From contig JASHNS010000023.1 in assembly GCA_030041515.1 (NCBI GenBank), positions 1 through 64,000 of the forward strand: 64,000 nt of DNA, given 5' to 3'. Positions 10,877-58,650 of the stretch are shown piece by piece (position 1 is the first letter of the stretch; each line of letters begins with the position of its first letter). The DNA is from Acidobacteriaceae bacterium (GTDB lineage: Bacteria > Acidobacteriota > Terriglobia > Terriglobales > Acidobacteriaceae). The notes under the pieces are model-generated. The model worked only from the letters and a program-made list of their open reading frames with translations, was not told the origin of the DNA and searched no databases. The position numbers were made by a program, and so were the translations under genes.

Positions 10877-12220
10877 ATGGAATGCGGGGAAAAGGTCAAC
10901 ACACATCAGAAGGCGCTTGAGATCAACCTCGACAAGACGAGCTACGGTTCCTTCGCCGAAATTGGAGCCGGGCAGGAAGTCGCACGATGGTTCCTGGTTG
11001 TGGGAGGAGCCTCCGGAACGGTTGCGAAGTCGATCTCTGCGTATGACAAGGAGGTCAGCGACGATTTGTATGGCTCCGGCGTCCGTTACGTTTCCAGACA
11101 GCGCCTCGAATCCATGCTGGACAGCGAGTGGGCGCAGCTTATCAAGCAGCTATGCCCAAGCCGTGGATCCACCACTCGCTTTTTCTCCTTTGTCGATACG
11201 ATCTCCGCTCGAAATTTCGCAGGGACCAACGAACCCCATGGCTGGGTCGGCCTGCGTTTTCAGCTCGAGCCTGGAGGTCCGAACAGCGACATTATTCTCC
11301 ATATCAACATGCTCGATCGGTCGACCCCGCTCGAGCAGGAGGCCATCGGCATTCTGGGCGTGAACCTGATCTACGCCATCTTCTTTCAGCTCCGGATGAG
11401 AGAATCTTTCCTCGACAACGTCGCTCAGGACATCGAGGGGCGCCTTGAAATCGACAGCGTCGAGGTGCGAGGGGCGGCCTTCGAAGGCTGGGATCAGCGA
11501 ACGATGCTGGCGCAACTGGTGTGCGCAGGCCTTGCCGAAGCCGTCTTATTCCCATCGAAGGGCCTCTCTGCTCCCCCTCTGGAAGTTCTCCACAAGAAGG
11601 CGGTCGTGCTGGCGCCCGGTTCATTCAAACAGCCAGGTTCCGCTCGTGCCGCTATGCGCATGCTGGCTTCCGGGCAAGAGCAGCTTCGAGGAGAGCTCGG
11701 CGAAAAGGACCCACTGATCGGTGGCTTCTTCTGTCTTTCCGCAATGCCGCTCTGGGACGCCGACACGCCGCCGGATATAGCCGATATCCTGGAACGTATT
11801 GATGGCCTTCGCGCACACGGCGGGGACGTTCTACTGTTCCGCGAACGGGAGTTGTACAGCATGACCTCCCTCATTAACCGCTATACGAAGGAATGTATCC
11901 GCTTCGTCATCGGTCTGTCGCTTCTGGTTCGCACATGGGAATACCGCTACACGAAACTTGACGGCAGCTTCCTTGAGGCTTTGTCTCGCCTGCTCGCGCA
12001 GAACGTGCGCATCTACGCTTATCCGATGACTGCGCCGGATCTGCGGCGGGCGATCGAAAGCGTCTCCGCCAAAGGCTGGCACTGGAGCGAAGTGAATGGA
12101 TGGGTTTCTGCGCAACAGCTTCACCCTCCGTCACCCCTCAGCCATCTGTATGATTATGTTCTTGGTAGTAATTTCCTCGTGTCAATGGAAATTCCCGCCG
12201 AACCAGATGGCCACCAGTAA
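10877..12220 (+). CDS. Conserved protein of unknown function (NAEIGAGQEVARW-type family)
   Basis: The 447-residue protein matches a widespread bacterial family whose members start with HQKALEINLD..YGSFAEIGAG, then QEVARWFLVVGGASGTVAKS and SAYDKEVSD..YG...RYVSRQRL. Database names for this family are inconsistent (for example nicotinate-nucleotide adenylyltransferase or TonB receptor), and I see neither a nucleotidyltransferase HxGH motif nor a signal peptide, so I do not assign a function. No transmembrane segments are evident; the protein is probably cytosolic. GAGGAG precedes the ATG by 7 bases. It is divergent from a stand-alone receiver gene and shares its control region. Confidence 0.75.
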   Translation: MECGEKVNTHQKALEINLDKTSYGSFAEIGAGQEVARWFLVVGGASGTVAKSISAYDKEVSDDLYGSGVRYVSRQRLESMLDSEWAQLIKQLCPSRGSTTRFFSFVDTISARNFAGTNEPHGWVGLRFQLEPGGPNSDIILHINMLDRSTPLEQEAIGILGVNLIYAIFFQLRMRESFLDNVAQDIEGRLEIDSVEVRGAAFEGWDQRTMLAQLVCAGLAEAVLFPSKGLSAPPLEVLHKKAVVLAPGSFKQPGSARAAMRMLASGQEQLRGELGEKDPLIGGFFCLSAMPLWDADTPPDIADILERIDGLRAHGGDVLLFRERELYSMTSLINRYTKECIRFVIGLSLLVRTWEYRYTKLDGSFLEALSRLLAQNVRIYAYPMTAPDLRRAIESVSAKGWHWSEVNGWVSAQQLHPPSPLSHLYDYVLGSNFLVSMEIPAEPDGHQ

Positions 12221-12376
12221 TCCTGTGCGCCGGTACGCAGCTCTCGGGCAGGACGGTTGCGCGAATTCACTGCAGAGTTCACGCAGGCCCGTGGAATAGC
12301 AGACGAGCCGTGCCTCGGCACAATCTGGGTGTCGTACTCCGCGTCGCGTGGCAGTGCCTCGGATCTGTCGCGACGA

Positions 12377-13261
12377 TCAATGCGGGATCGCCGCCTCTGA
12401 GGCGGGGGCCATCGCGAACCGACGCACCAATTCGGCAATCTCATCCGGCTTCGTATCCAGCGCGAAATGGCCGGCATCGAGAAGATGCACCTCAGCGGAT
12501 AGCACGTCTTTGCGATATCGCTCCGGCTCGCCGGAATCGAAGGAGAGATCGTGCTTTCCCCAAAGAACGAGGAGCTTCGGTTGTGTCTTCTGCATCCACG
12601 CCTGCCATTTCGGATAATCGTCAACGTTAGTGCGATAGTCGTAAAAGAGGTCGCTCTGGATCTGCGCCTGGCCCGGTGCATTCAAAAACGCGTACTCATC
12701 GGTCCAGAGATCCGGATCGTAGCTGCCGACATCCGGATCATCTCCGACATGGCGGGTCCTGGTCGTGGGAAGGGATAGTAGGTTCGCGCGCAGTTCCGCT
12801 TCGTGAGCCTCGCGGCTTGCCCAGAATGCGCGCCGCGTTGCCCAGTTTGCTCCAAGCCCTTCATTATGTGCTACCGCGTCCTGAACGATAAGCGCCTGGA
12901 CCCGCTCCGGATGCGCCAGTACCATACGAAACCCCACGGGCGCGCCGTAATCCTGCATGTAAAGTGTGTAATGCGATAACCCAAGGGCCTCAGTAAATCG
13001 AGTCATCACCTCGGCAATATGGTCGAAAGTGTACTCAAATTCTTCCGGGGGTGGCCAGTCGCTGTGACCGAAGCCTGGATAATCCGGCGCCACAAGGTGG
13101 TAGCTGTGAGAGAGTCGCGTCAGAAGAGGTTGAAACATCCGCGACGATGACGGAAGGCCGTGGAGCAGAAGGAGCGTGGGAGCATCCTGTGTGCCGGCTT
13201 CTCGGTAGAAGAGAGAGAGACGATCCACCTGGATCGTGCGATAGTGGACGGGCTGGTGCAT
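12377..13261 (-). CDS. Alpha/beta hydrolase (haloalkane dehalogenase / epoxide hydrolase-like)
   Basis: The 294-residue enzyme has the oxyanion motif LLLHGLPSSSRMF, an Asp nucleophile in the elbow YMQDYGAPVGFR, a cap region, a second acid near LLVLWGKHD and a catalytic His in LLDAGHFALDT. The Asp rather than Ser at the nucleophile position places it with haloalkane dehalogenases and epoxide hydrolases. The start at 13261 follows AAGGAGAAGCA; the longer frame to 13390 overlaps non-conserved sequence. It is the last gene of a five-gene minus-strand cluster with alcohol dehydrogenase, cytochrome P460, RidA and SDR genes, which suggests detoxification of a reactive organic compound. Confidence 0.85.
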   Translation of the reverse strand: MHQPVHYRTIQVDRLSLFYREAGTQDAPTLLLLHGLPSSSRMFQPLLTRLSHSYHLVAPDYPGFGHSDWPPPEEFEYTFDHIAEVMTRFTEALGLSHYTLYMQDYGAPVGFRMVLAHPERVQALIVQDAVAHNEGLGANWATRRAFWASREAHEAELRANLLSLPTTRTRHVGDDPDVGSYDPDLWTDEYAFLNAPGQAQIQSDLFYDYRTNVDDYPKWQAWMQKTQPKLLVLWGKHDLSFDSGEPERYRKDVLSAEVHLLDAGHFALDTKPDEIAELVRRFAMAPASEAAIPH

Positions 13262-13386
13262 TGCTTCTCCTTGTCGCGAATCTCCGCCGGCAGGCCGTGT
13301 CGGAGGCGGGCCTGCGAGGTATGCACATGCGCCCGGCTCCGCCGCGCGAGTCCTGGATCGCTGCCACGCACTGCCGGCGAGCGATT

Positions 13387-14418
13387 TCACATCGTGAGGA
13401 CGACACGAAATTCAGCCTTACCACTCATCATCCGAGCGTAGGCTTCGGCAGCCTTCTCCATGGGGTAGGTTTCGATCATGGCGCGCACCCCGCTTAATTC
13501 CGCGAAGCGCAGGGTGTCTTCCGAGTCGGCGGGTGTACCCGCCGCCCACCCCTGAATGGTCTTGCTGCCCACGATCAGTTGCACCGGCGCAACCTCAATG
13601 GGATCGAAGGCGGCCCCGATCACGAGCAGTTTGCCGTTAGGACCGAGTCCGTTGATCAATCCTGACATCGCCTTCGAATTAGGCGCCGTCGCCATGATGA
13701 CCCGGGCGCCGCCAAGTTCCTGCAGTTCAGCTGCCGGGTCGGTTGCTTTGCTGTCGATGTATACTGCGGCACCAAGTTTCTTTGCCAGTGCCGCATTCTC
13801 CGGACCGCGACCGATGGCGGCAACCTGATAGCCGAACCTGTTTGCGAACTGGATTCCCAGGTGCCCCAGGCCGCCAATGCCCTGTACGGCCACAAGGTCC
13901 CCGGGCAAAGCTCCGCTGTGCCGCAGCGCGTTGTACGTGGTGATTCCCGCGCAGAGAAGAGGTGCTGCATCGGCGTCGCTGAGGCCGTCTGGAATGGGAA
14001 CCAGCGCTTCGGCGGGCGCAACCATGTATTCCTGATAGCCGCCGTCGTAACTGATACCGGCAATCTTCTCATTGCGGCAGTTGCGGAAATCTCCGCGACG
14101 GCATTCGCGGCACGTACCATCATGACCGCCGTGCCAGCCCACGCCGACCCGCTGGCCCTCGCGCCATTGCAGTACCCCACTTCCCACCTGATCCACAATC
14201 CCCGCTACTTCGTGTCCTGGAACCCGCGGATAAGCGATTCCGGGCCACGAACCATCTACTACCAGTGCGTCGCTGTGGCAGACGCCACACGCCAGAACGC
14301 GAATGCGCACTTCGCCCGCGCCCGCCGTGGGAATGGAGCGCTCAACTACCTCAAGGCCAGATCCGCCCCTGGCCACCTGTGCCGCCTTCATAGTTGTCCT
14401 TACCGTCGCTGTCGTCAT
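13387..14418 (-). CDS. Zinc-dependent alcohol dehydrogenase (MDR family)
   Basis: The 343-residue product has catalytic-zinc residues in CGVCHSDALV and GHEVAGIVDQVG, structural-zinc cysteines in CRECRRGDFRNC, the catalytic-side CAGITTYNAL motif and the NAD-binding GIGGLGHLGIQFA. This is the AdhP/AdhA-type enzyme that oxidises alcohols or reduces aldehydes with NAD(H). AGGAGGA lies just before two consecutive ATG codons (14421 and 14418); spacing favours 14418. It sits between the alpha/beta hydrolase and the cytochrome P460 gene on the same strand, 125 and 89 bases away. Confidence 0.9.
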   Translation of the reverse strand: MTTATVRTTMKAAQVARGGSGLEVVERSIPTAGAGEVRIRVLACGVCHSDALVVDGSWPGIAYPRVPGHEVAGIVDQVGSGVLQWREGQRVGVGWHGGHDGTCRECRRGDFRNCRNEKIAGISYDGGYQEYMVAPAEALVPIPDGLSDADAAPLLCAGITTYNALRHSGALPGDLVAVQGIGGLGHLGIQFANRFGYQVAAIGRGPENAALAKKLGAAVYIDSKATDPAAELQELGGARVIMATAPNSKAMSGLINGLGPNGKLLVIGAAFDPIEVAPVQLIVGSKTIQGWAAGTPADSEDTLRFAELSGVRAMIETYPMEKAAEAYARMMSGKAEFRVVLTM

Positions 14419-14507
14419 CATTCCTCCTGGGAGTATTTGCACAACTTTTCTAAATCAGCTCATGCGGAGCTTGGAAGGTCATCGTCTGACCAGGTCGATC
14501 CCCGCGC

Positions 14508-15077
14508 CTATCTCGGCGCATAATCGGTGAAAATGTAATCGCGATTCCTGACCGCCGTGTGGCACTGATAGCAGACTGTCTTCCCGAACAAAGCGTCCTT
14601 GCCGTAGGGATGAAATGTCTTAGAGGCTGGATCGTAGAGAAACTGCGCGTAGCCCCACCCGCTCGTGTTGGGGAATCTCTTCGAGTCCTTCTCGATGAAT
14701 GACACCGATTTCAGCGTGGCCGGAACCTCCACGAAGTAGGGTGACACTGGATTCTGCGCTTTGTTCCATTCGATCTTCACAATCACGGAGCCGTCGGGGA
14801 ACGGCTGGCCGTTGGCAGGAATGCCGGCCTGGTAGGCCTTGACGATCGTGCGATTTCCGAGGATCGCTTTGACCCCGGTCGCGGTGGTGCTGACCGACAC
14901 GTCCTGCCACCGAGCGTATCCACGGAATTCCGAAAAGCTGACTCCGTTGGGAGCTTTGAGCGTGTGGCGATCCTGAACGTCCTGAGATGCAAGCTTCGCA
15001 ACCCCGGCCAGCACAGAGGCCAGGATGAGGCAAGCTATGCTGATCCACATACGTTGTTGGCCGCCGACGATTCGCAT
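14508..15077 (-). CDS. Cytochrome P460-family c-type haem protein
   Basis: The 189-residue protein has an N-terminal membrane/signal segment (MWISIACLILASVLAGVAK) and a single haem-c site CYQCH near residue 168, followed by RNRDYIFTDY, as in cytochrome P460 family proteins. It should be exported and bind one haem c in the periplasm. Proven family members oxidise hydroxylamine or detoxify nitrogen oxides, but many acidobacterial members have unknown roles. A good GGGAGG ribosome site precedes ATG 15077. The gene lies in the SDR-RidA-P460-ADH-hydrolase cluster. Confidence 0.85.
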   Translation of the reverse strand: MRIVGGQQRMWISIACLILASVLAGVAKLASQDVQDRHTLKAPNGVSFSEFRGYARWQDVSVSTTATGVKAILGNRTIVKAYQAGIPANGQPFPDGSVIVKIEWNKAQNPVSPYFVEVPATLKSVSFIEKDSKRFPNTSGWGYAQFLYDPASKTFHPYGKDALFGKTVCYQCHTAVRNRDYIFTDYAPR

Positions 15078-15117
15078 ATTCGGATTCCTCCCTTTTAGTT
15101 GCCGCTCAGTTCCTGCA

Positions 15118-15618
15118 CTAAGGCCCGGCGGAATCGGCTACTTCCAGGATGACTTCCAGTTCGATCGGCATACCGAGAGGAAGGCTCATTACCCCGATCA
15201 CGAGGCGAATGGATACGCCAGCCGCGCCGAAGACGTCGCGAAACAAGTCCGAGGCGCCATCGGCCACGCCTGGATGTTCCAGGAAGTCCTCGGAGGTGGC
15301 CATGAATATGCCGAGGCGCACAACCCGCGTTACCCGATCGAGCGAACCCAGGAATGCTTTGGCTGCAGCCAGTGCACTCAGTCCCGCTGTTCGAGCCGCA
15401 TCGCGGCCGGCTTCCGCATCCAGTTCTCTGCCTATCCGGCCCAGATATTTCGGTGTGTGGCCGACAACCGGGAGCATGCCGGTCAGGAAGAGCAGACGTC
15501 CTGTCTGTAGCGCCTCGACATAATTGCCGAAAGGCGTCGGCGCGATCGGCAGTTCGACCCCCAAACTCGAAAGCCGCCGCTCTGCGCTGCTCTCCGGCAG
15601 CTTCGCTGCGCCTACCAT
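15118..15618 (-). CDS. RidA (YjgF/YER057c/UK114) family protein
   Basis: The 166-residue protein has the RidA fold signatures: ALQTGRLLFLTGMLPV in the first half, TAGLSALAAAKAFLGSLDRV in the helix, and IELEVILEVA at the C-terminal strand. The canonical C-terminal Arg that hydrolyses 2-aminoacrylate (IPxxARxxVxV type) is absent: the corresponding place reads RLVIGVMSLPLGMPIELEV, so it belongs to the YjgH-like or Rid5-7 type rather than RidA proper. Its start overlaps the end of the SDR gene by 7 bases, implying translational coupling. Confidence 0.85.
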   Translation of the reverse strand: MVGAAKLPESSAERRLSSLGVELPIAPTPFGNYVEALQTGRLLFLTGMLPVVGHTPKYLGRIGRELDAEAGRDAARTAGLSALAAAKAFLGSLDRVTRVVRLGIFMATSEDFLEHPGVADGASDLFRDVFGAAGVSIRLVIGVMSLPLGMPIELEVILEVADSAGP

Positions 15619-24728: not shown

Positions 24729-25883
24729 ATGAGCGCGCTCGAGGTAAACTGCATCCGCAACTTTGACCGGGAGACCTGCCGCCGTTCTGAGATGGTGGGC
24801 CAGAGTTCTGCGCTTAAAGTGGCGCTGGACCAGGCTCGGCTGGTAGCCACAACGGATTCTACTGTTCTGATCCTTGGTGAGACTGGCACAGGGAAGGAGC
24901 TAGTCGCTCGCTCCATCCACGCGATGAGTGATCGCGCAGGCCGTCCGTTTGTGAAAGTGAATTGCGCCGCAATTCCCTTTGATTTGCTGGAAAGTGAGCT
25001 GTTTGGGCACGAAAGAGGAGCGTTTACCGGCGCAAATGTCCAAAGATCCGGGCGGTTCGAAATTGCGCACGGCGGGACATTGTTTCTTGATGAAATCGGT
25101 GACTTACCCCTCGCATCGCAGCCTAAACTCCTTCGAGTCCTTCAGGAAGGAGAGTTTGAGCGTCTGGGCAGTAGTCGCACACAACATGTTGACGTACGGC
25201 TGATTGCCGCGACCCATCGCGACCTGAAAGCTATGGCGCGTAACAATGAATTCCGCAGCGATTTATACTATCGACTAAGCGTATTTCCGGTAATGATGCC
25301 ACCGCTGCGCGAGCGTCGAGGCGACATCCCTCCTCTCATCTGGCATTTCATTGAGGTTTTCTCGCGCCGGCTGGGCAAAAAGATCACCTGTGTCCCGGAA
25401 GAGACGCTGCTTTCGCTGACTGCATATGATTGGCCAGGCAACATTCGTGAGCTTCAGAATGTAATTGAACGGGCTGTCATTTTGTCGCAGGACGGTGTAT
25501 TCCCCGATCTGCGAGATCAGGTCTGCACTCTGCCAATCCCGTCAGCCACGGCGCCCCCCGCCCCCGGCCATTGCGAACGTGATCTGATCGTAAATACATT
25601 GCGGGAGAGCAACTGGGTGGTCGGAGGCGTCAGAGGAGCAGCGATGAAGCTCGGGCTTAAGCGAACAACCCTCATTGCAAAAATGAAACGCATGGGCATT
25701 GAATGTGAGCGGCAACGCGAGGAAGCTGGCCCGGTCCTCTGGATGGATGCTGCAGCGGGGGCGTCTGCAGGCGCTTCGCCGGCCACTCTGCCTGGAGCGC
25801 CTGCTCGCTCAGGAAGCAATACCGCTGTTCCCTCAACTGATACCGGACTACCGCGCCCATCTCTGTTCGTTATGCACAACTAA
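24729..25883 (+). CDS. Sigma54-dependent transcriptional activator without a sensor domain
   Basis: The 384-residue protein starts almost directly with the AAA+ module: Walker A GETGTGKE (about residue 49), GAFTGA sigma54-contact loop (about residues 99-104), Walker B TLFLDEIGD, and arginine-finger region LYYRLSVFPVMMPPLRER. A Fis-type HTH (GVRGAAMKLGLKRTTLIAKM) lies near residue 310, followed by an unusual 60-residue Ala/Pro/Gly-rich tail. No receiver, GAF or PAS domain precedes the AAA+ part, so its activity must be controlled otherwise (as with PspF). The ATG at 24729 follows GGAGAG. It is 52 bases after the ECF sigma gene. Confidence 0.9.
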   Translation: MSALEVNCIRNFDRETCRRSEMVGQSSALKVALDQARLVATTDSTVLILGETGTGKELVARSIHAMSDRAGRPFVKVNCAAIPFDLLESELFGHERGAFTGANVQRSGRFEIAHGGTLFLDEIGDLPLASQPKLLRVLQEGEFERLGSSRTQHVDVRLIAATHRDLKAMARNNEFRSDLYYRLSVFPVMMPPLRERRGDIPPLIWHFIEVFSRRLGKKITCVPEETLLSLTAYDWPGNIRELQNVIERAVILSQDGVFPDLRDQVCTLPIPSATAPPAPGHCERDLIVNTLRESNWVVGGVRGAAMKLGLKRTTLIAKMKRMGIECERQREEAGPVLWMDAAAGASAGASPATLPGAPARSGSNTAVPSTDTGLPRPSLFVMHN

Positions 25884-30280: not shown

Positions 30281-30640
30281 CGTCTCAGCGCCGGATCATC
30301 GCGGCCCCCCGTCCGCGCCCCTTAGTTTGAGTGGTGAATGTCATGTGTCAAACTGCGTGACACCTTCGACAGTGTAAGTTGTCGATCCTTCCCACGGAAA
30401 GCTCACTCGATTGCCGCCCGAAATGATCATCTTGCCCTTCGGCGGAGAAGAATCGAAGCGCTCACTGCGGAATTTCGCTCCGGAAGCGCAGCCGTGCCAA
30501 CGCGCCAATGCGGCTCACTGCGGAATGTAAGTGGGTCCTCCTCTTCCTGGATGGCAACTCACGTGCAGCAGCGTCGGCTATCTGCGGGCCAGCGCCGCTG
30601 CAAGTCACTTTGAGAGTTCTCGCGGGGATCAGAATCAGCC
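30281..30640. other. Leader region of the radical SAM operon
   Basis: No gene seen. A 14-base direct repeat GCTCACTGCGGAAT occurs twice about 53 bases apart (near 30458 and 30511). It may be a duplicated binding site or simple local duplication. Confidence 0.3.
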
Positions 30641-31933
30641 ATGGAGCCTCCGATGCCACAACAGGAAGTCCAGACTTCATCGTTTCGGCTGGATGTGGAG
30701 CTGCACCAGCTTTTGACGGCTCCGGCCAGCGATACTATCCGACTGCCGCCACTCGGAGTGCCGCAAAAGTTCCCTGAGCCGGTCTTTCCCCAATATCCGG
30801 AACTGCTCGGTCCGGTTGCTGATGATCCAGCCTGGAGGGCACCCGAGCGGCGCCACTGGACTCCCAACCAGGTCTACAAAACGATGCGCGGGTGGCTGTT
30901 TCCATTTATCCGGTCGCGTGTCACGCCCGGTGACTTCCATCCCCTGATCGCCTATCTCTTTACCGAATTCAAGTGCAATCTCGACTGTCATTACTGCTGG
31001 GCTTTTGACAATAAAGTCAAGGGCATGACAGAGGACACAGCAAAGCGCTCCGTGGACTGGCTGTACGGGACCGGGTGTCGCGTGCTCGCCTTCATGGGTG
31101 GTGAGCCCCTGCTGCGCCCGGACTTCATCCATCGGATCACACATTATGCGGCGAAGAAGGGCTTCTGGATCTATCTGCCGACGAACGCGCGCCTGCTGCG
31201 CACCGATGTCATCGACAAGCTGGCTGACGCCGGGCTGGCAACGTTCAACATTGCGGTCGACGCTGTCGATATCAAGCCGGGGTTGCCGAAGGCGCTGGCC
31301 CCCATCCGGAAGCAGTTCGACTATTTGATCCGCAAGCAGTACGCCTACGGGTACTCCACATTTCTGAACATCAATATCTGCCGCAACAATCTGGACGACG
31401 TCCGGCAGCTCACCGAAATCGCGCACGACCTCGGCATTGCTACGGACTATCACATCAATGAATCTCCGCTGCTCGCGCAGGATGAACATTTCAAGCATGC
31501 GGCGGAGAATGTCACTTACATCACGCCCGACGACTGGCCGGCGGTTGAGGAGACCATCCAGTGGCTGACGGAGAAACAGGACTCCGGCTACAAGATGGTC
31601 AACTCGAATACGCGGTTATGGCAGATGGTCGACTTCATGAAGGGGAATCATTTCCCCTGGAACTGCCGGGCGGGCCAGAATTCGATGATCATTCGCGTCG
31701 ACGGAACGCTGGCGCCGTGTTTCCCCATGTACACAGCGAATTACGACTGGGGCGTCGTCGGCGATCACAAGTTCGACACGAAGCAGCTCGACCACCAGAA
31801 AGAGAGTTGCCAGACACACTGTTTTTCCACGCTTAACCATATCCTCGGCTGGTGCTACAACGACCAGCGAGTGATCAAGTACTTCTTCAAACAGCTGGCG
31901 CATGGATTCCAGGGAGTACACGGCCAGATGTAA
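30641..31933 (+). CDS. Radical SAM protein with SPASM-like C-terminal Cys cluster
   Basis: The 430-residue enzyme has the radical SAM CX3CX2C motif in FKCNLDCHYCWAF (about residues 109-121), AFMGGEPLLRPD for SAM binding, and a C-terminal Cys-rich region (WNCRAGQNSMIIRVDGTLAP, CFPMYTANYDW, CQTHCFSTLNHILGWCY) as in SPASM proteins that carry extra Fe-S clusters. It uses SAM and an electron to produce a 5'-deoxyadenosyl radical. Substrate unknown. It is 55 bases before the dehydratase-like gene and thus first in a five-gene operon with low-potential electron-activating proteins. Confidence 0.88.
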   Translation: MEPPMPQQEVQTSSFRLDVELHQLLTAPASDTIRLPPLGVPQKFPEPVFPQYPELLGPVADDPAWRAPERRHWTPNQVYKTMRGWLFPFIRSRVTPGDFHPLIAYLFTEFKCNLDCHYCWAFDNKVKGMTEDTAKRSVDWLYGTGCRVLAFMGGEPLLRPDFIHRITHYAAKKGFWIYLPTNARLLRTDVIDKLADAGLATFNIAVDAVDIKPGLPKALAPIRKQFDYLIRKQYAYGYSTFLNINICRNNLDDVRQLTEIAHDLGIATDYHINESPLLAQDEHFKHAAENVTYITPDDWPAVEETIQWLTEKQDSGYKMVNSNTRLWQMVDFMKGNHFPWNCRAGQNSMIIRVDGTLAPCFPMYTANYDWGVVGDHKFDTKQLDHQKESCQTHCFSTLNHILGWCYNDQRVIKYFFKQLAHGFQGVHGQM

Positions 31934-31988
31934 AAGCCCTTCGAATTCGCCCGGCTCGGTAAGCCAATCCTACCCAGAGGAGAGACGT

Positions 31989-33776
31989 ATGCCGACAACG
32001 GTTGAGGTCGTCCAGACCGACTACGAAATGGAAATTCAGGCCCGCATCGATGCGGAGCGGGCGCGCCTTCGTGCCGAGGCCGGGCTGGCTCGGATGAGGG
32101 AGTTCAACAAGCCGGTGGAGCGCGGGTTCACGGCGGCAGAGCGGGATCGCGTCACAATCCTGTTTGGCGGTCTCACGTGGAAACACGAGGAGATGATCAA
32201 GGCGGTGTTCCACGGGAGCGGGTACCGCTGCGAGAATATCCCGACGCCGGTGGTTGCTGATTTTCAGGCGGGCAAAGAGTTCGGCAATAACGGCCAGTGC
32301 AATCCGACGTATTTCACGGTCGGCAACCTGGTTCGGCATCTCCAGAAACTGGAAGCTCAGGGCCTGACCCGCAAGGAGATCATCGACAACTACGTCTTCT
32401 TCACCGCCGGCTCCTGCGGCCCCTGCCGATTCGGCATGTATGAAGCCGAGTATCGTTACGCGTTGCAGAACGCCGGCTTCGATGGGTTCCGGGTGCTGCT
32501 CTTCCAGCAGACCGACGGCATCAAGGCGGCCAGCGGCGAGCCGGGACTGAAGTTCACGGTCGATTTCGGCATGGGCATGCTGAATGCGCTGAACCTCGGC
32601 GATGTCATGAACGAGCTGGTCTATCAGGTCCGTCCTTTCGAGGTGAACAAGGGCGAGACAGATCGCGTGATTCACGAGGCGGCGAAGACGCTCACCGACA
32701 CGCTGCGCGAACGCAAGCGGTGGCACATCGACGATGCCACCCCGAGGTGGCTGTTGCCTCTGCTATCGAAGAACGAGAAGGTAAAGGGCATCACCTGCAC
32801 CCTCGGAAAGGTCGCGCACAATCTGTACGGCAAGGAATACGTGAACGCACTGCACGCCTGCCGCGACCGTGTCGACGCGATCGAGGTCGACCGTCTGCGG
32901 GTGAAACCCGTCATCAAAATCACAGGCGAATTCTGGGCGCAGACGACGGAAGGTGACGGCAACTTCAACATGTTTGCCTTCCTCGAAAAGGAAGGAGCGC
33001 AGGTGTTGGTCGAGCCGATTGCCACATGGATCGCCTACATGATGTATGTGGCGAAAGCCGGCATTCGGGAGCGCTTCGAGGCCCAGGCGCCGCACCGCAA
33101 CCCAAAGTGGTACGAGGTCAGGAAGCAGCTCGTCAACCGCCTGGCGCTGCTCAAAAAGACGGGCGGCCTCAGCGCCGGCAGTGTCATGTGGACCTACTTC
33201 TATCACCGCACCATTCGCCACCTGGGAGATACTGCTCACCGGCTCGTACCACAGAAGGAGCTGTCACGCCTCGCCCATCCGTTTTATCACCAGCTCGCCC
33301 GCGGTGGCGAAGGCTATATGGAAGTCGGCAAGAACGTGTATTACACCGTTAACCACCTCTGCCACATGGTGCTCGCGCTGAAGCCGTTCGGCTGTATGCC
33401 GTCGACCCAGTCCGATGCGGTGCAATCGCGTGTGGTCAGCAAGTACAAGGACATGATTTTCCTGCCTATCGAGACCTCCGGTGAAGGCGAGGTCAACGCG
33501 CACAGCCGGGTACAGATGGCGCTGGCGGAAGCAAGGGCCAGGGCTCGCGCCGAATTCGACGGCGTCCTCGAGAAGACCGGCAAGTCCATGGACGATCTCC
33601 GCGACTACGTAGAACACCACCCGGAGCTGAAGCACGCGCTCTACAAGGTACCCCACCGGGACGGAATTGCCGGCACCGCGGCACAGTTTGCCTGGCATGT
33701 CAGCGACCTGATCGACCGGGATGATGTACCACGGCGGCACCCAGGGAAACCCATACCTGCGCAGCAGGCAGCGTGA
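31989..33776 (+). CDS. 2-hydroxyacyl-CoA-dehydratase-like protein (CoA-activase partner)
   Basis: The 595-residue protein has the layout of the activase-associated 2-hydroxyglutaryl-CoA-dehydratase-like family: VTILFGGLTWKHEEMIKAVF, NNGQCNPTYFTVGNLVRHL, FFTAGSCGPCRFGMYEAEY (Cys cluster) and late EGYMEVGKNVYYTVNHLCHM, KPFGCMPSTQSDAV. Cys residues in these blocks could hold a [4Fe-4S] cluster. ATG 31989 follows GGAGAG by 5 bases. In many bacteria this part is fused to the activase; here it is a separate gene next to it, split by a short membrane protein gene. The reaction is unknown. Confidence 0.8.
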   Translation: MPTTVEVVQTDYEMEIQARIDAERARLRAEAGLARMREFNKPVERGFTAAERDRVTILFGGLTWKHEEMIKAVFHGSGYRCENIPTPVVADFQAGKEFGNNGQCNPTYFTVGNLVRHLQKLEAQGLTRKEIIDNYVFFTAGSCGPCRFGMYEAEYRYALQNAGFDGFRVLLFQQTDGIKAASGEPGLKFTVDFGMGMLNALNLGDVMNELVYQVRPFEVNKGETDRVIHEAAKTLTDTLRERKRWHIDDATPRWLLPLLSKNEKVKGITCTLGKVAHNLYGKEYVNALHACRDRVDAIEVDRLRVKPVIKITGEFWAQTTEGDGNFNMFAFLEKEGAQVLVEPIATWIAYMMYVAKAGIRERFEAQAPHRNPKWYEVRKQLVNRLALLKKTGGLSAGSVMWTYFYHRTIRHLGDTAHRLVPQKELSRLAHPFYHQLARGGEGYMEVGKNVYYTVNHLCHMVLALKPFGCMPSTQSDAVQSRVVSKYKDMIFLPIETSGEGEVNAHSRVQMALAEARARARAEFDGVLEKTGKSMDDLRDYVEHHPELKHALYKVPHRDGIAGTAAQFAWHVSDLIDRDDVPRRHPGKPIPAQQAA

Positions 33777-33949
33777 TGCGTTCCGTGCGGGAACTTCTTA
33801 TAGAGATCGCCTCTAATCTGGTCATTTTCTTCTTCGCGCTCGCGCTCGTTGTCACACTCGGAGAACTCCAGAGGGAACAGGAGCGACGGGGCGAAGCGGC
33901 ATCGGGGGGCGCGGCACTTGCGCGGCGACTCACCCGATGGAAAGAGTGA
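33776..33949 (+). CDS. 57-residue membrane protein within the activase operon
   Basis: The ATG (33776-33778) overlaps the last base of the preceding stop codon (TGATG), and the TGA at 33947-33949 ends 10 bases before the activase start. The product opens MRSVRELLIEIASNLVIFFF, then ALALVVTLGE and an Arg/Glu-rich C-terminus. One transmembrane helix (residues about 12-29) with an amphipathic tail is predicted. The exact overlap and spacing make translation likely. It might anchor the cytosolic complex at the membrane; I do not recognise a family. Confidence 0.65.
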   Translation: MRSVRELLIEIASNLVIFFFALALVVTLGELQREQERRGEAASGGAALARRLTRWKE

Positions 33950-33959
33950 GAGCAAAGCG

Positions 33960-36900
33960 ATGCGGCAGCTATTTGTCGGTTTGGATGTAGGCTCCACCAC
34001 AGTCAAGGCGGTGGTCGTCGATGCGGACACGGACGCCATCCTCTGGCAGGATTACCAGCGCCACGAAACGCGCCAGCCGGAAAAGGTGCTCGAGTTCCTC
34101 GGGCGTATGGAAGCGGAGGCGGGTGTCGCGCGGGACAATACGCGCATCTTCGTCACCGGCTCGGGAGGCGGGACCATCGCGGAGATGATCGGCGCAAAGT
34201 TCGTGCAGGAAGTGCACGCTGTCGCACTGGCCGTGGAGAAGCTGCATCCTGAGGTCTATTCGGTTATCGAGCTGGGAGGACAGGATGCCAAGATCATCGT
34301 CTTTAAGGATGATGAAGAGACCGGCCGCAAGAAGAAGATCCCGTCGATGAACGACAAGTGCGCCGGCGGCACGGGCGCGGTCATCGACAAGATCAACGCC
34401 AAGCTCAAAATTCCCACCTCGGAACTCGCCAATCAGGGGTACCACGGCATCAAGCTGCACAAGGTGGCCGGCAAATGCGGCGTGTTTGCCGAGACCGACA
34501 TTAACGGCCTGCAGAAGACGGGAACGCCGCCCCACGAGCTGATGGCCTCGCTCTTTGAGGCCATCGTGCTGCAGAACCTCAGCGTGTTGACGCGCGGTAA
34601 TACCCTGCGTCCGCACGTCCTGTTGCTGGGCGGCCCGAATGGGTTCATCCGCGGCATGCGCGAGGCCTGGCAGGCCAACATCCCGCGTATGTGGAAGGAG
34701 CGCAAGGTCGAGATTCCTGAAGACGCCACGCCTGAAGATCTCATCAAAGTTCCCGATAACGCGCAATACTTCGCCGCACTCGGTTCAGTTGAATTCGGCA
34801 AGGACGAGGAGCCTGAGGTCGGCCGCTATCTCGGCACGGAGAAGCTACAGTGGTACATGGAGTACGGGCGCGCCGAAGAGAAGGCTGCATCCGGGGGCAA
34901 AGGTCTCGTTGCCAGCAGCGCCGAATTTGATGAGTTCCGCTCTGCTTACCGCCGGAAGAAGTTCATCCCCGCGGAATTCCTGCCGGGTGAAACTGTCTCC
35001 GGCTTCGTGGGTGTCGACGGAGGCTCGACATCGACCAAGGCGGTGCTTCTCAGCCAGTCCGGCGACGTACTCTGCAAGGCCTATCAGCTATCGAACGGCA
35101 ATCCGATTCAGGACACCATCGAGATGTTCGACAAGCTGCGCGAGCAGGTGGAGGGCAAAGGGGCACGTCTCGAGGTCCTTGGCGTTGGCACCACCGGCTA
35201 CGCCAAGGACATCCTCCGCGACGTGCTCAATGCGGACGTCGCCCTGGTCGAAACCGTTGCGCACACCGAGTCCGCGCTCAAGTTCTACGACGATCCCCAC
35301 GTGATCGTCGATGTGGGCGGCCAGGACATCAAGCTCATCGTGCTCAAAGACGGCCGGGTCAAGGACTTCAAACTCAACACACAGTGTTCTGCCGGCAACG
35401 GCTACTTTCTCCAGTCCACAGCAGAAGGCTTCGGCATGAAGATCGAGGATTTCGCTGACGTCGCCTTCTCGGCGAAATCCATGCCGTCCTTCGGCTACGG
35501 CTGCGCCGTCTTCATGCAGTCGGATATCGTGAACTTCCAGCGCCAAGGCTGGCGCGCCGAGGAGATCCTCGCCGGCCTCGCTGATGTCCTGCCGAAAAAC
35601 GTCTTCCTCTATGTCGCCAGTATCCCCAACCTCGCCGCCCTTGGTTCGCGATTCGTGCTGCAGGGCGGAACGCAGAACAACCTCGCCGTCGTGAAGGCTG
35701 AAGTCGATTTCATTCGCTCCAGCTTCCGCGCCAACGGCAAACGGCCGGAGATCATCGTCCACGAACACTGCGGCGAATCAGGCGCCATTGGCGCCGCTCA
35801 GGAAGCGCTGCGGTTGTGGAAGAACGGGAAGAAAACGACCTTTATCGGCATTGATGCGGTTCGCCAGATTCGCTACCGCACCACGCGCAATGAAGACACT
35901 CGCTGCTACTTTTGCAAAAACAACTGTTTGCGCACCTTCATCGACGTGGATGTTTCAGGTGGCTCCGCGCTGTCGGCCGAAGCGCCCACGCCAATAGCCG
36001 AGGACCGCGCCGCCACGCCGGAAGAGGTCGCGGCGGCGGTAACCAGTCTCCCCAGCCTGGAGCGGATCGAAGCGAATCTGCCCGCCCATGGATCTTCCTG
36101 CGGCACGGGGCACGGGCACGAGCATGCTGGAGGCAGCTGCGGCTGCGGATCCTCTTCGACGCAGTCTCTCCGGGCCAAGGTTGAGCCGCTGGTTCAGATC
36201 CTGGCTGCGCCCGGAGCGAAGAAGCCCGTCGAGGCCCCGAAGCCCACCGGTGAGTTTCAGCCGCGCAAGACGAAAGTCCCCCTGCGCGCGGGCGAGCAGC
36301 GGCTCATCATCGCCACCTGCGAAAAAGGAACGGTCGAAGATCTCAGCGACATGAAGGGCATCAAGGCCGACATAGACAAGGTCAAGGCTGCGAATCCGAA
36401 CTTCGTCGATCTCGCCGCCCGCGACGTCTTCCGTCCTCGCGAAGTCGCCACCGTCGCCGATCCTCTTCCCAGTATCAAAGGCCTCTTTGTCTCGAAAGCC
36501 GCCAAAGACCGCGCCGCGCTCATGGAACGACGCAGGGAATTTCGCATCGGCATTCCTCGTCTGCTCAATACCTACACCTATGCGCCGCTGTTCAACGGTT
36601 ACTTCGCGAGCCTCGGCATCGCGGCGGAAAATATCGTCTATTCCGACTACACGACGCCCGAGCTCTATCGCGCCGGAGCCAGCCGCGGCGCCGTCGATCC
36701 CTGCTATCCCTCCAAGATCGGCATCGCGCACGTGTATAACCTGCTCGCCGTCAAGCACAGCAAAAAGCCGCTCCATGCCATCTGGTTCCCCATGTATGAC
36801 GTGCTGCACACCCATCTCGTGAACCTGACCGGGTCGAACGCCTGCCCTACGGTGACGGCCACGCCCAATGCCGTCAAGGCGGCTTTCACCAAAGAGAGCG

Positions 36901-37706
36901 ACATCTTCGCCGAAAACGGCGTCGTCTATCTCGATCCCATTCTCAACCTGCAGGACCGGAAAATCTGCGCCGACCAGATGTACAAAGCCTGGGCCCCCTT
37001 CCTCGGTCTCTCGCTCGATGAAAATGATCGGGCCATCGAGGCTGGCTTTCGCGCCCTGGCGGAATCCGAGAACGACATCCGCCGCCAGGCCCGCGAAACC
37101 CTCGATCAGCTCGAGCGCGACGACCGCATCGGCATCGTCATGCTGGGCCGCGTCTACCACCATGATCCCGGCCTCAACCATGAAATTCTTGAGGAGTTTC
37201 AGAAGCTCGGCTACCCGGTCTTTTCGCAGAGCACGCTGCCCATAGACGACGACCTGCTCGAACGGCTCTTCGGCGAGGAGGTTCGTGCCGGCATCATCAC
37301 CCATCCCCTCGATATCAGCGACGTCTGGAAGAATCGCTATTCCACCAGCACCAACCACAAGATCTGGGCGGCCAAGTTCACTGCGCGCCACCCCAATCTC
37401 GTCGCTCTCGAGGTTTCCAGCTTCAAGTGCGGGCACGACGCGCCCATCTACGGCGTCATCGAAGGCATCATCGAGCGCTCCGGCACGCCCTATTTCTCGT
37501 TCAAGGACCTCGACGAAAACAAACCCTCGGGTTCGATTCGCATTCGCGTCGAGACGATCGACTACTTCCTGCGGCGCTATCGAGAAGACATTATCGAACG
37601 CCACCGGAAAGAACGTCTCATCGAAGCCCAGATGGCCGCCTTCGAGCGATCCCTCCGCAGGAGTGAGGAGGACGAATATGAACTCGTCGCCGCGGCAGGA
37701 GATTAG
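33960..37706 (+). CDS. Giant tandem acyl-CoA dehydratase activase (BadF/BadG/BcrA/BcrD type) with DUF2229 part
   Basis: The 1,248-residue protein has two actin/Hsp70-like ATPase activase units: one opening with LFVGLDVGSTTVKAVVVDAD (residue 4) with MNDKCAGGTGAVIDKI and VAGKCGVFAETD, the other at about residue 346 (FVGVDGGSTSTKAVLLS) with NTQCSAGNGYFLQ and FGYGCAVFMQSD. The paired Cys in each would bridge a [4Fe-4S] cluster at a subunit or domain interface. Then comes CYFCKNNC, a His/Cys-rich linker (SSCGTGHGHEHAGGSCGCGS, about residue 716) and a C-terminal DUF2229/CoA-dehydratase-like part (RIGIPRLLNTYTYAPLFNGY; DPCYPSKIG). Such activases hydrolyse ATP to push electrons to very low potential. 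The start at 33960 begins exactly at the first ATPase strand. Confidence 0.88.
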   Translation: MRQLFVGLDVGSTTVKAVVVDADTDAILWQDYQRHETRQPEKVLEFLGRMEAEAGVARDNTRIFVTGSGGGTIAEMIGAKFVQEVHAVALAVEKLHPEVYSVIELGGQDAKIIVFKDDEETGRKKKIPSMNDKCAGGTGAVIDKINAKLKIPTSELANQGYHGIKLHKVAGKCGVFAETDINGLQKTGTPPHELMASLFEAIVLQNLSVLTRGNTLRPHVLLLGGPNGFIRGMREAWQANIPRMWKERKVEIPEDATPEDLIKVPDNAQYFAALGSVEFGKDEEPEVGRYLGTEKLQWYMEYGRAEEKAASGGKGLVASSAEFDEFRSAYRRKKFIPAEFLPGETVSGFVGVDGGSTSTKAVLLSQSGDVLCKAYQLSNGNPIQDTIEMFDKLREQVEGKGARLEVLGVGTTGYAKDILRDVLNADVALVETVAHTESALKFYDDPHVIVDVGGQDIKLIVLKDGRVKDFKLNTQCSAGNGYFLQSTAEGFGMKIEDFADVAFSAKSMPSFGYGCAVFMQSDIVNFQRQGWRAEEILAGLADVLPKNVFLYVASIPNLAALGSRFVLQGGTQNNLAVVKAEVDFIRSSFRANGKRPEIIVHEHCGESGAIGAAQEALRLWKNGKKTTFIGIDAVRQIRYRTTRNEDTRCYFCKNNCLRTFIDVDVSGGSALSAEAPTPIAEDRAATPEEVAAAVTSLPSLERIEANLPAHGSSCGTGHGHEHAGGSCGCGSSSTQSLRAKVEPLVQILAAPGAKKPVEAPKPTGEFQPRKTKVPLRAGEQRLIIATCEKGTVEDLSDMKGIKADIDKVKAANPNFVDLAARDVFRPREVATVADPLPSIKGLFVSKAAKDRAALMERRREFRIGIPRLLNTYTYAPLFNGYFASLGIAAENIVYSDYTTPELYRAGASRGAVDPCYPSKIGIAHVYNLLAVKHSKKPLHAIWFPMYDVLHTHLVNLTGSNACPTVTATPNAVKAAFTKESDIFAENGVVYLDPILNLQDRKICADQMYKAWAPFLGLSLDENDRAIEAGFRALAESENDIRRQARETLDQLERDDRIGIVMLGRVYHHDPGLNHEILEEFQKLGYPVFSQSTLPIDDDLLERLFGEEVRAGIITHPLDISDVWKNRYSTSTNHKIWAAKFTARHPNLVALEVSSFKCGHDAPIYGVIEGIIERSGTPYFSFKDLDENKPSGSIRIRVETIDYFLRRYREDIIERHRKERLIEAQMAAFERSLRRSEEDEYELVAAAGD

Positions 37707-38526
37707 AAAGTATCCGTGCCCTCGTCGAGGCCGTTCCGCCGGCCGAATCCGGCATCTTTCCGTCCTCGAGATCTGCCTTAGCCTCTCGATTCTGATCGCT
37801 ACTGTCGCGGCCCCTGAAGGAGCCTCGCAGGAGCTCCAGGCGGCCTCGGCGCCAACTGGCGCCGAGATCGTCCAGCGGATGGTGGCGCGCAATCAGGAGC
37901 GTGCCGAGCATCTCGGTCCATATACGTCGCTCCGCGAGTACCACCTGAAATACGTTGGGTTTCCGCATGCCGCAGAGGCTGGCCTCGTGGTGGATGTAAG
38001 CTGCGAAAGCAATACCTCGATACAGTTTCACGTGATCTCCGAATCAGGCTCGCATTTCCTCGCCAATCATGTCCTGAAAAGGCTTCTGAAGGCGGAGCAG
38101 GACGCCGACCGCGAACGCAGTGACAACGGTCTGACGCCGGCGAATTACAACTTCACTCTGGAGGGAACCGAAACTAATAATGGCAGGAGGGTTTATGTCC
38201 TCAGGGTGGAACCCTGGCACGCGAAAGCGCTCCTCTATCGGGGTACCATCTGGGTGGACGCCCAGGATTATGCGGTCGTGAAGATCGACGCCGAGCCGGC
38301 GCGGAGCCCCTCCTTCTGGATCCGCAACACAGAAATCCATCACGCCTATGAGAAGATCGGTGCCTTTTGGTTGCCACAGCAGGATCGCAGCCAGACCATG
38401 GTCCGCCTCGGCGGTTCAGCTTACCTGACTATCAAGTATCAAGACTACCGACTGAGCTCGACGTCACTTCCGTCGCCTGCCACGATAGACCGCACAGCGA
38501 CCGCCGAATTGAGTCCGTCCCACTGA
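37678..38526 (+). CDS. LolA-like exported outer-membrane lipoprotein-sorting-type protein
   Basis: The 282-residue protein has a signal segment (LSVLEICLSLSILIATVAAP, about residues 27-46) and a LolA/LolB-type beta-sheet half-barrel (IVQRMVARNQERAEHLGPYT, LRVEPWHAKALLYRGTIWVD, AVVKIDAEPARSPSFWIRN, FWLPQQDRSQT). The ATG 37678 overlaps the activase end by 29 bases, with GGAGGA before it, so translation is coupled. It would be a periplasmic lipid/lipoprotein-binding protein; its place at the end of a cytosolic redox operon is unusual. Confidence 0.75.
   Translation: MNSSPRQEIRKYPCPRRGRSAGRIRHLSVLEICLSLSILIATVAAPEGASQELQAASAPTGAEIVQRMVARNQERAEHLGPYTSLREYHLKYVGFPHAAEAGLVVDVSCESNTSIQFHVISESGSHFLANHVLKRLLKAEQDADRERSDNGLTPANYNFTLEGTETNNGRRVYVLRVEPWHAKALLYRGTIWVDAQDYAVVKIDAEPARSPSFWIRNTEIHHAYEKIGAFWLPQQDRSQTMVRLGGSAYLTIKYQDYRLSSTSLPSPATIDRTATAELSPSH

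Positions 38527-57051: not shown

Positions 57052-58650
<1,599 letters not shown>

Follow-up and report, generated by a model that had tools for sequence, protein, structure and literature searches.

The window analysed here is a stretch of 64,000 nucleotides from the forward strand of contig JASHNS010000023.1 (assembly GCA_030041515.1, an Acidobacteriaceae bacterium). Our subject is an operon within it, the core of which encodes a radical SAM protein (rSAM), an HgdD-like reductase component and a tandem activase (Table 1). We propose, with a probability of roughly 0.55, that the latter two constitute an oxygen-sensitive split reductase that converts esters of membrane glycerolipids to ethers, similar to the plasmalogen synthase PlsA/PlsR and the glycerol ester reductase Ger and forming a subfamily of its own. 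This reading rests on the likeness to PlsA and Ger and on one producer of ether lipids, Edaphobacter aggregans. That the genes code for an ATP-driven reductase of the 2-hydroxyacyl-CoA dehydratase/benzoyl-CoA reductase (HAD/BCR) type, acting on some substrate, seems to us highly probable.

No Pfam family matched the HgdD-like protein (queried one residue short of its best start), and comparison with solved structures (PDB) by sequence gave no match up to E 1. A structural model was built from an alignment of 23 sequences (pLDDT 85.4). The top nine rows of its Foldseek search all belong to the family of 2-hydroxyisocaproyl-CoA dehydratase, benzoyl-CoA reductase and double-cubane proteins, the best one at a modest E of 6e-4 and TM of 0.32 of the query. 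VIA-align agrees: its eight best rows, which align 261-281 residues at Z 8.3-10.2, are all of the same family and are followed by an unrelated row with 109 residues only (Z 7.6). Thus the fold is alike, at an identity of just 7-12%, and the earlier assignment of this gene as a split dehydratase-like one stands. C104, C146 and C469 are invariant across the 23 aligned sequences. Model and alignment together provide the HgdB/D-type reductase fold and the cysteine ligands of a HAD/BCR reductase, while DUF2229 and the tandem activase layout set the system apart from the HAD/BCR/double-cubane family.

In the activase protein, Pfam finds two BcrAD_BadFG domains (242.6 bits) and DUF2229. The activase domains match structures 1hux, 4eht and 9gai by homology, and each carries a cysteine pair, C134/C173 and C476/C515, which we take to be cluster ligands by their role in HgdC. 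Both domains are accordingly ASKHA activases with two cluster cysteines. The HgdD-like protein and the activase/DUF2229 protein appear to be the two parts of a single ATP-driven low-potential reductase; domain set, reductase fold and cysteines bear out what the preliminary description had supposed on this point. A small ferredoxin-like protein (cluster c8, weak Fer4_7) lies near the operon in L042, L043, L045, L099 and L100 and is a possible candidate for the electron donor to the activase.

The two halves are also physically connected. Among 61 relatives, 20 loci were chosen by HgdD match, and the activase gene adjoins HgdD in all 20. A scan of genome contigs confirmed at least 583 relatives, and the best 80 loci were kept: 43 with acidobacterial names and 37 others, including Marinimicrobia, Ignavibacteria, Planctomycetes, Poribacteria and Polyangia. 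In 71 of the 80 the activase lies within the HgdD flank. Many of the compared loci are metagenome-assembled genomes (MAGs) or short contigs, where an absent neighbour may mean absent sequence; six of the nine loci lacking the activase end 500 bases or less from HgdD, and three (L142, L158, L183) have room beyond HgdD and no activase match. HgdD is usually first, the order being reversed in L181, L190 and L193, and in some loci a gap of roughly 1 kb is seen. L108 encodes its DUF2229-like part separately, and fused relatives of 1335-1476 amino acids occur within the same phylum (L112-L115). Two further arrangements were seen. In L043, positions 11234-15609 next to the split operon encode, in divergent orientation, another tandem-activase pair (1025 + 441 amino acids) that is very different, and L108, L109 and L050 represent a further offshoot with the motif GACGPCRFGQYHxSYTMAL in the HgdD protein.

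The preliminary description had called the system unlike any familiar pathway, but PlsA/PlsR and Ger are its closest published relatives. Both convert glycerol-bound acyl esters to (vinyl) ethers (PMC13274423, PMC12838417, PMC9702350; here and below, the cited papers are represented by parts of their text), Ger function being described in PMC13274423 and PMC8788747. According to PMC13274423, Ger and PlsA are not yet separable by sequence. The plasmalogen synthase PlsA/PlsR is that of Clostridium perfringens, with a single-gene form in Enterococcus, Lactococcus and Listeria; a review lists the last among facultative anaerobes that have both plasmalogens and plsA/plsR orthologues (PMC9702350). 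Our comparison was made with fused PlsA-type proteins rather than with the C. perfringens genes. Shared features are the tandem activases, the CxxCxxxC linker, the DUF2229-type and HgdD-type regions and 14 cysteines. What differs is that the reductase domain of the window is a separate upstream gene and that, in many Acidobacteriota, rSAM stands alongside. With Ger of Thermotoga maritima (Tmari_0479) and Desulfatibacillum alkenivorans, compared by its published description only, the window shares the two activation domains ('BB'). The combination that marks PlsA and Ger, two BcrAD_BadFG domains, DUF2229 and a reductase domain, is all present, the reductase in its separate gene.

A protein search of a plasmid collection gave 10 records with named relatives, and five pieces were compared. 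Three of the records (NZ_CP030101.1, NZ_CP154629.1, NZ_CP084075.1), of 2.1-2.9 Mb, are filed as plasmids and look like chromosomes. Between the window activase and the Listeria orthologue, identity is 33% over 658 amino acids (E 4e-95); for the DUF2229 part it is 26%. When the window pair is joined in PlsA order, it has a cysteine at each of the 14 columns where all seven fused PlsA-type proteins, including the Listeria orthologue, have one; 11 lie in the activase protein and 3 in the reductase. Two other columns, with cysteine in six and five of these seven proteins, have none in the pair. These columns come from one MAFFT alignment, from which a Fusobacterium frame was dropped because it ends early.

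The link to ether lipids is provided by E. aggregans DSM 19364 (L145). It carries rSAM, HgdD and activase in the order of the window at 83-85% identity, and in its 8.2 Mb genome the operon is the sole PF09989 (DUF2229) locus found; the window genome likewise has one. In culture, this species, one of a small number of soil isolates known to do so, forms branched glycerol dialkyl glycerol tetraethers (brGDGTs) and an iso-diabolic-acid glycerol ether, with more brGDGT at low oxygen (PMC13274423, PMC8941075, PMC10087280). HAD/BCR enzymes are highly oxygen-sensitive (PMC12838417), a chemistry that fits the rise of brGDGT under oxygen limitation. Activases of this kind had been placed mainly in strict anaerobes; the subfamily is in fact common in Acidobacteriota, Edaphobacter included, and Edaphobacter paludis is described as an aerobically growing species (PMC11354219).

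Among 62 Edaphobacter genomes, 12 have an activase match. Nine of these hold intact operons, and all nine keep rSAM, HgdD and activase in the same order, which is above chance. The remaining three are G312 (L215), where all three genes are broken, G200 with a partial activase only, and G322 with a distant copy (68%) on a short contig. HgdD was found in none of 11 other searched genomes of the window's own genus. This distribution suggests an accessory trait that is acquired and lost as one unit.

Several results weigh against the ester-to-ether reading. Identity to the Listeria orthologue is only 22% in the HgdD half (E 1.7e-20), which falls below the homology cut-off used for PlsA/Ger in PMC13274423 (E <= 1e-30, identity > 30%), whereas the activase at 33% lies above it; the reference in this comparison is an unvalidated Listeria orthologue. 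In an IQ-TREE phylogeny of 38 activase regions only, rooted at midpoint, the split subfamily makes up its own clade on a long branch (28 rows, 100/99) outside the PlsA-type clade (8 rows, 96/95), which includes the Listeria, Acetoanaerobium, Collinsella, Fusobacterium and Haliovirga proteins. The two clades are sisters under the midpoint root drawn, in a tree with warnings for long branches (L115, L112, L043b) and uneven residue composition. The link to a producer rests on one species, the other producer being Solibacter usitatus, and since 12 of 62 Edaphobacter genomes have the operon (nine intact), coincidence with the producer by chance has a probability of about 0.15-0.19. PMC11354219, with E. 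aggregans among its Edaphobacter strains, saw no iso-diabolic glycerol ethers in the conditions used. E. aggregans may have other ether routes (ElbD/AGPS) besides its PF09989 locus, the subfamily is present in many lineages outside Acidobacteriota as well, and the E. aggregans operon has no sigma-54 site, palindrome or neighbouring activator of the kind described below.

The 14 common cysteines, taken with the separate clade, lead us to conclude from alignment and tree that the pair is probably the same machine as the PlsA-type proteins in a separate subfamily. We do not name it PlsA or Ger, as it falls outside their clade in the activase tree. The fused Acidobacteriota proteins L112-L114 share 37-41% identity with the Listeria protein over nearly the whole length, so they, and not the window pair, are the PlsA-type proteins of Acidobacteriota.

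The first alternative is that the same ATP-driven machine works on a non-lipid substrate (a CoA thioester, a cofactor or another metabolite that is hard to reduce) and that its presence in E. aggregans is coincidental. We regard this as unlikely, if by no means far-fetched. Structurally solved HAD/BCR relatives act on CoA esters or are double-cubane proteins, and the separate clade, its spread over many phyla and the presence of the operon in 12 of the 62 Edaphobacter genomes agree with such a substrate. On the other hand, the functions reported in the cited texts for the layout of tandem activase, DUF2229 and reductase are those of PlsA and Ger, every one of the PlsA-type cysteines is kept, and the sole DUF2229 locus found in a brGDGT producer is this operon.

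Next to the reductase stands rSAM, with a Pfam Radical_SAM domain. The preliminary assignment as a radical SAM-SPASM protein holds for the radical SAM part; SPASM is a loose term here, as the Pfam SPASM score is 18.2 bits against a cut-off of 21.5. None of the 25 NCBIfam families listed, of 62 matched, reaches its cut-off. Besides CxxxCxxC, four further cysteines are invariant in 22 aligned sequences, and by our reading of this alignment they would suffice for one auxiliary cluster, twitch-like. The model (pLDDT 78.5) is nearest to BlsE, SuiB and PqqE.

The association of rSAM with the pair is frequent. It adjoins the pair in 12 of the 20 chosen loci, four times as HgdD-rSAM-activase (L033, L037, L048, L049) and eight times as HgdD-activase-rSAM. 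Among the 80 best scan loci it flanks 13 of the 43 acidobacterial ones, lying on the opposite strand in L149 and in pieces in L165. In Bryobacteraceae, the family of G351, rSAM is found in 38 of 237 genomes (E up to 1e-60), HgdD in 96 (E up to 1e-40) and both in 35. A phylum sample of 247 genomes contains rSAM in 22, split activase (E < 1e-150) in 23 and both in 9. Fisher tests on this co-occurrence ignore relatedness, and their p-values overstate it. Because the two go together in 35 of 38 cases in Bryobacteraceae but in 9 of 22 in the phylum sample and in none of the 37 non-acidobacterial loci, rSAM is a frequent, non-obligate partner with an independent life in some genomes. L088 and L093 carry a shorter rSAM relative (356 amino acids, 44-47% identical to that of the window), and six genomes of one genus have the short relative and no activase match at E up to 1e-30.

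These counts bear on a second alternative, in which rSAM is the centre of the system, altering either a lipid tail (cross-link, ring, methyl) or the reductase, and the reductase serves as its partner or electron source. Co-occurrence persists even where the genes are not adjacent, HgdD being present in nearly all rSAM-positive Bryobacteraceae against 96 of 237 genomes overall, and all ten rSAM-bearing Edaphobacter genomes of the 62 (the nine with intact operons and G312) have an activase match. Yet rSAM is missing from the flanks of every non-acidobacterial scan locus, many of which carry the pair, and 13 of the 22 rSAM-positive genomes in the phylum sample lack a split activase match at E < 1e-150. 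Neither rSAM nor the reductase thus strictly needs the other, and we consider the idea of an rSAM-centred system improbable.

A Tes homologue is reported in E. aggregans (PMC8941075), and the window genome, with 22 radical SAM matches of which 21 are above cut-off, has its own, a protein of 696 amino acids on contig C15 (E 5e-62 to 7tol, 213 bits over residues 93-588; 325 bits to NCBIfam Tes, under its cut-off of 450). Tes, the archaeal tetraether synthase, has the radical SAM fold in common with rSAM. Hopanoid radical SAM genes, HpnH and HpnJ, are also found above cut-off in this genome (G000:C105 and C59; L224, L220). A third proposal, that rSAM itself is a tail-to-tail coupling enzyme (Mss/Tes-like) and the operon a complete one for membrane-spanning ether lipids, is scarcely credible: rSAM's best sequence match among solved structures is indeed archaeal tetraether synthase (E 2e-6), but the similarity, far from full-length, amounts to 30 bits over residues 103-225 (under a third of the length) as against 213 bits to the same chain for the genome's own homologue, BlsE, SuiB and PqqE outrank Tes (rank 35) by fold, and iso-diabolic acid occurs in all six Edaphobacter strains of Table 1 in PMC11354219 when rSAM is found in just 10 of 62 Edaphobacter genomes. 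For this partial match, fold rank and rarity we reject rSAM as a Tes/Mss coupling enzyme, the comparison having been made with Tes and with no validated Mss.

We next consider regulation. The region upstream of rSAM was compared in 13 close loci: the window, E. aggregans, eight further Edaphobacter and three MAG loci (L116-L118). Of 300 first-order random sequences, 7 reach the score of the window's sigma-54-type promoter candidate (Table 1) under assumed consensus weights (p 0.023). Sites at -79 to -99 with p <= 0.023 are present in 8 of the 13 loci (window, L207, L209-L213, L076), and the seven Edaphobacter sites outscore that of the window. The corresponding site of L116 is weaker (p 0.107), and no such site was found at this position in L145, L117, L118 and L208. 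Among FNR-like and other simple boxes sought upstream of rSAM, the sole match was one sigma-54 box. The inverted repeat TGCCAANNNNTTGGCA, sought in the window, has 15 matches there at up to 3 mismatches, fewer than the chance mean of 25.5, and none of them is upstream of rSAM.

A palindrome, TGCCA-N6-TGGCA, lies at -209 to -228 in 8 of the 13 loci (L116, L207, L209-L213, L076). In these eight and in the decayed L215, an activator gene lies immediately upstream, in divergent orientation. These activators are akin to the L076 protein over most of their length (the L211 copy in two frames), and in that protein Pfam finds GAF, sigma-54 interaction and Fis-type helix-turn-helix (HTH) domains. Past the far end of the activator gene, seven of the eight loci have a second palindrome. 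The eight are not all independent, because L076 and L210 are near-identical relatives. A sigma-54 promoter with its own GAF activator in most Edaphobacter loci suggests that the operon is probably switched by a signal, for instance low oxygen. The window has the promoter and lacks the palindrome and the adjacent activator; of two activators elsewhere in it, that at 24729 is possibly a remnant or variant of the one bordering the Edaphobacter operon, and that at 57052 is a candidate to serve the operon promoter in trans. As E. aggregans is without these elements at its operon, this interpretation of the regulation does not reach the producer.

Table 1. Genes and promoter candidate of the operon and sigma-54 activators in the window (aa, amino acids)
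Feature	Coordinates	Strand	Length	Basis or remark
Radical SAM protein (rSAM), twitch/SPASM-like	30641..31933	+	430 aa	open reading frame, Pfam, model
HgdD-like reductase component	31989..33776	+	595 aa	best start 31989, after AGGAG-type ribosome site
Single-pass membrane protein	33776..33949	+	57 aa	open reading frame
Tandem ASKHA activase (2x BcrAD_BadFG), CxxCxxxC linker and DUF2229	33960..37706	+	1248 aa	
LolA-like/DUF5686-like accessory protein, N-terminal hydrophobic segment	37678..38526	+	282 aa	best start 37678
Sigma-54-type promoter candidate TGGCAACTCACGTGC	30552..30566	+		about 90 bases before rSAM start; best within 400 bases upstream
Sigma-54 activator, AAA+ and weak Fis-type HTH, no GAF found	24729..25883	+		
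GAF and sigma-54 activator	57052..58650	-		

Our own codon-model gene call gave the same five genes, with the rSAM start shifted to 30653. All five lie on the forward strand with gaps of 55 bases or less or overlaps, as the preliminary description had it. The check that it had proposed, conservation of the five-gene order, came out negative: what is kept is the three-gene core, in varying order, and the 57-residue and LolA-like genes are not carried with it, so that we reject a five-gene unit. The 57-residue protein matched no Pfam family, and tblastn over the loci compared gave it no relative. In the same kind of search, LolA relatives turned up close to the operon in just four cases, namely the window, L048, L117 and L208; the Pfam match of the LolA-like protein to LolA_like/DUF5686 is sub-threshold, from a query ten residues longer than its best start. 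Both genes are local extras, not core. A lipid remains the best guess for the substrate, as the preliminary description had suggested, but the clue that it drew from these two genes is lost, neither being conserved.

Another small protein, of 94 residues (cluster c4), is encoded downstream of the split activase at many loci from several phyla (L133-L136, L146, L159, L162, L163, L167, L175, L179, L042, L043, L045, L098-L100, L106). It belongs to no Pfam family and has no match in the window or in 14 loci of the Edaphobacter group; outside that group it may be a third component.

The ester-to-ether reductase that we propose could work as follows. The tandem activase would spend ATP and push single electrons through its iron-sulfur sites to the [4Fe-4S] cluster of the HgdD-like reductase. 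The latter would reduce an acyl ester of a glycerolipid, and loss of water would then yield a (vinyl) ether. In Acidobacteriota, rSAM may serve the same trait, either with the lipid as its target or in a helper role; coupling of the chains is probably not its task, since the genome has a separate Tes homologue. The operon would probably be turned on by a signal such as low oxygen.

Our literature search, which covered main texts, found no description in the parts seen of this operon or of a Ger in Edaphobacter, nor any described ether-forming enzyme of subdivision 1 Acidobacteria. PMC13274423 holds both 'Edaphobacter' and 'glycerol ester reductase', and its one Edaphobacter passage, in the part available, concerns lipids. 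The text of PMC10087280 directs readers to its supplement for PlsAR homologues in S. usitatus, and overlap of our observations with earlier supplementary tables is possible. The acidobacterial pathway has been called still unclear (PMC11868695).

Branched GDGTs are widely used for reconstruction of past temperature and pH. We tentatively suggest, as a step further that is doubtful on present evidence, that the pair together with rSAM makes the ether bonds of brGDGTs in subdivision 1 Acidobacteria, the missing step behind this palaeothermometer, with a sigma-54/GAF switch in many Edaphobacter and with rSAM performing an undescribed step in ether-lipid formation. If true, oxygen-sensitive chemistry would explain why E. 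aggregans yields more brGDGT when oxygen is scarce. The operon is a small and concrete candidate in a culturable soil genus, where its natural presence, absence and decay make it directly testable, and it would extend low-potential activase chemistry to bacteria growing in air.

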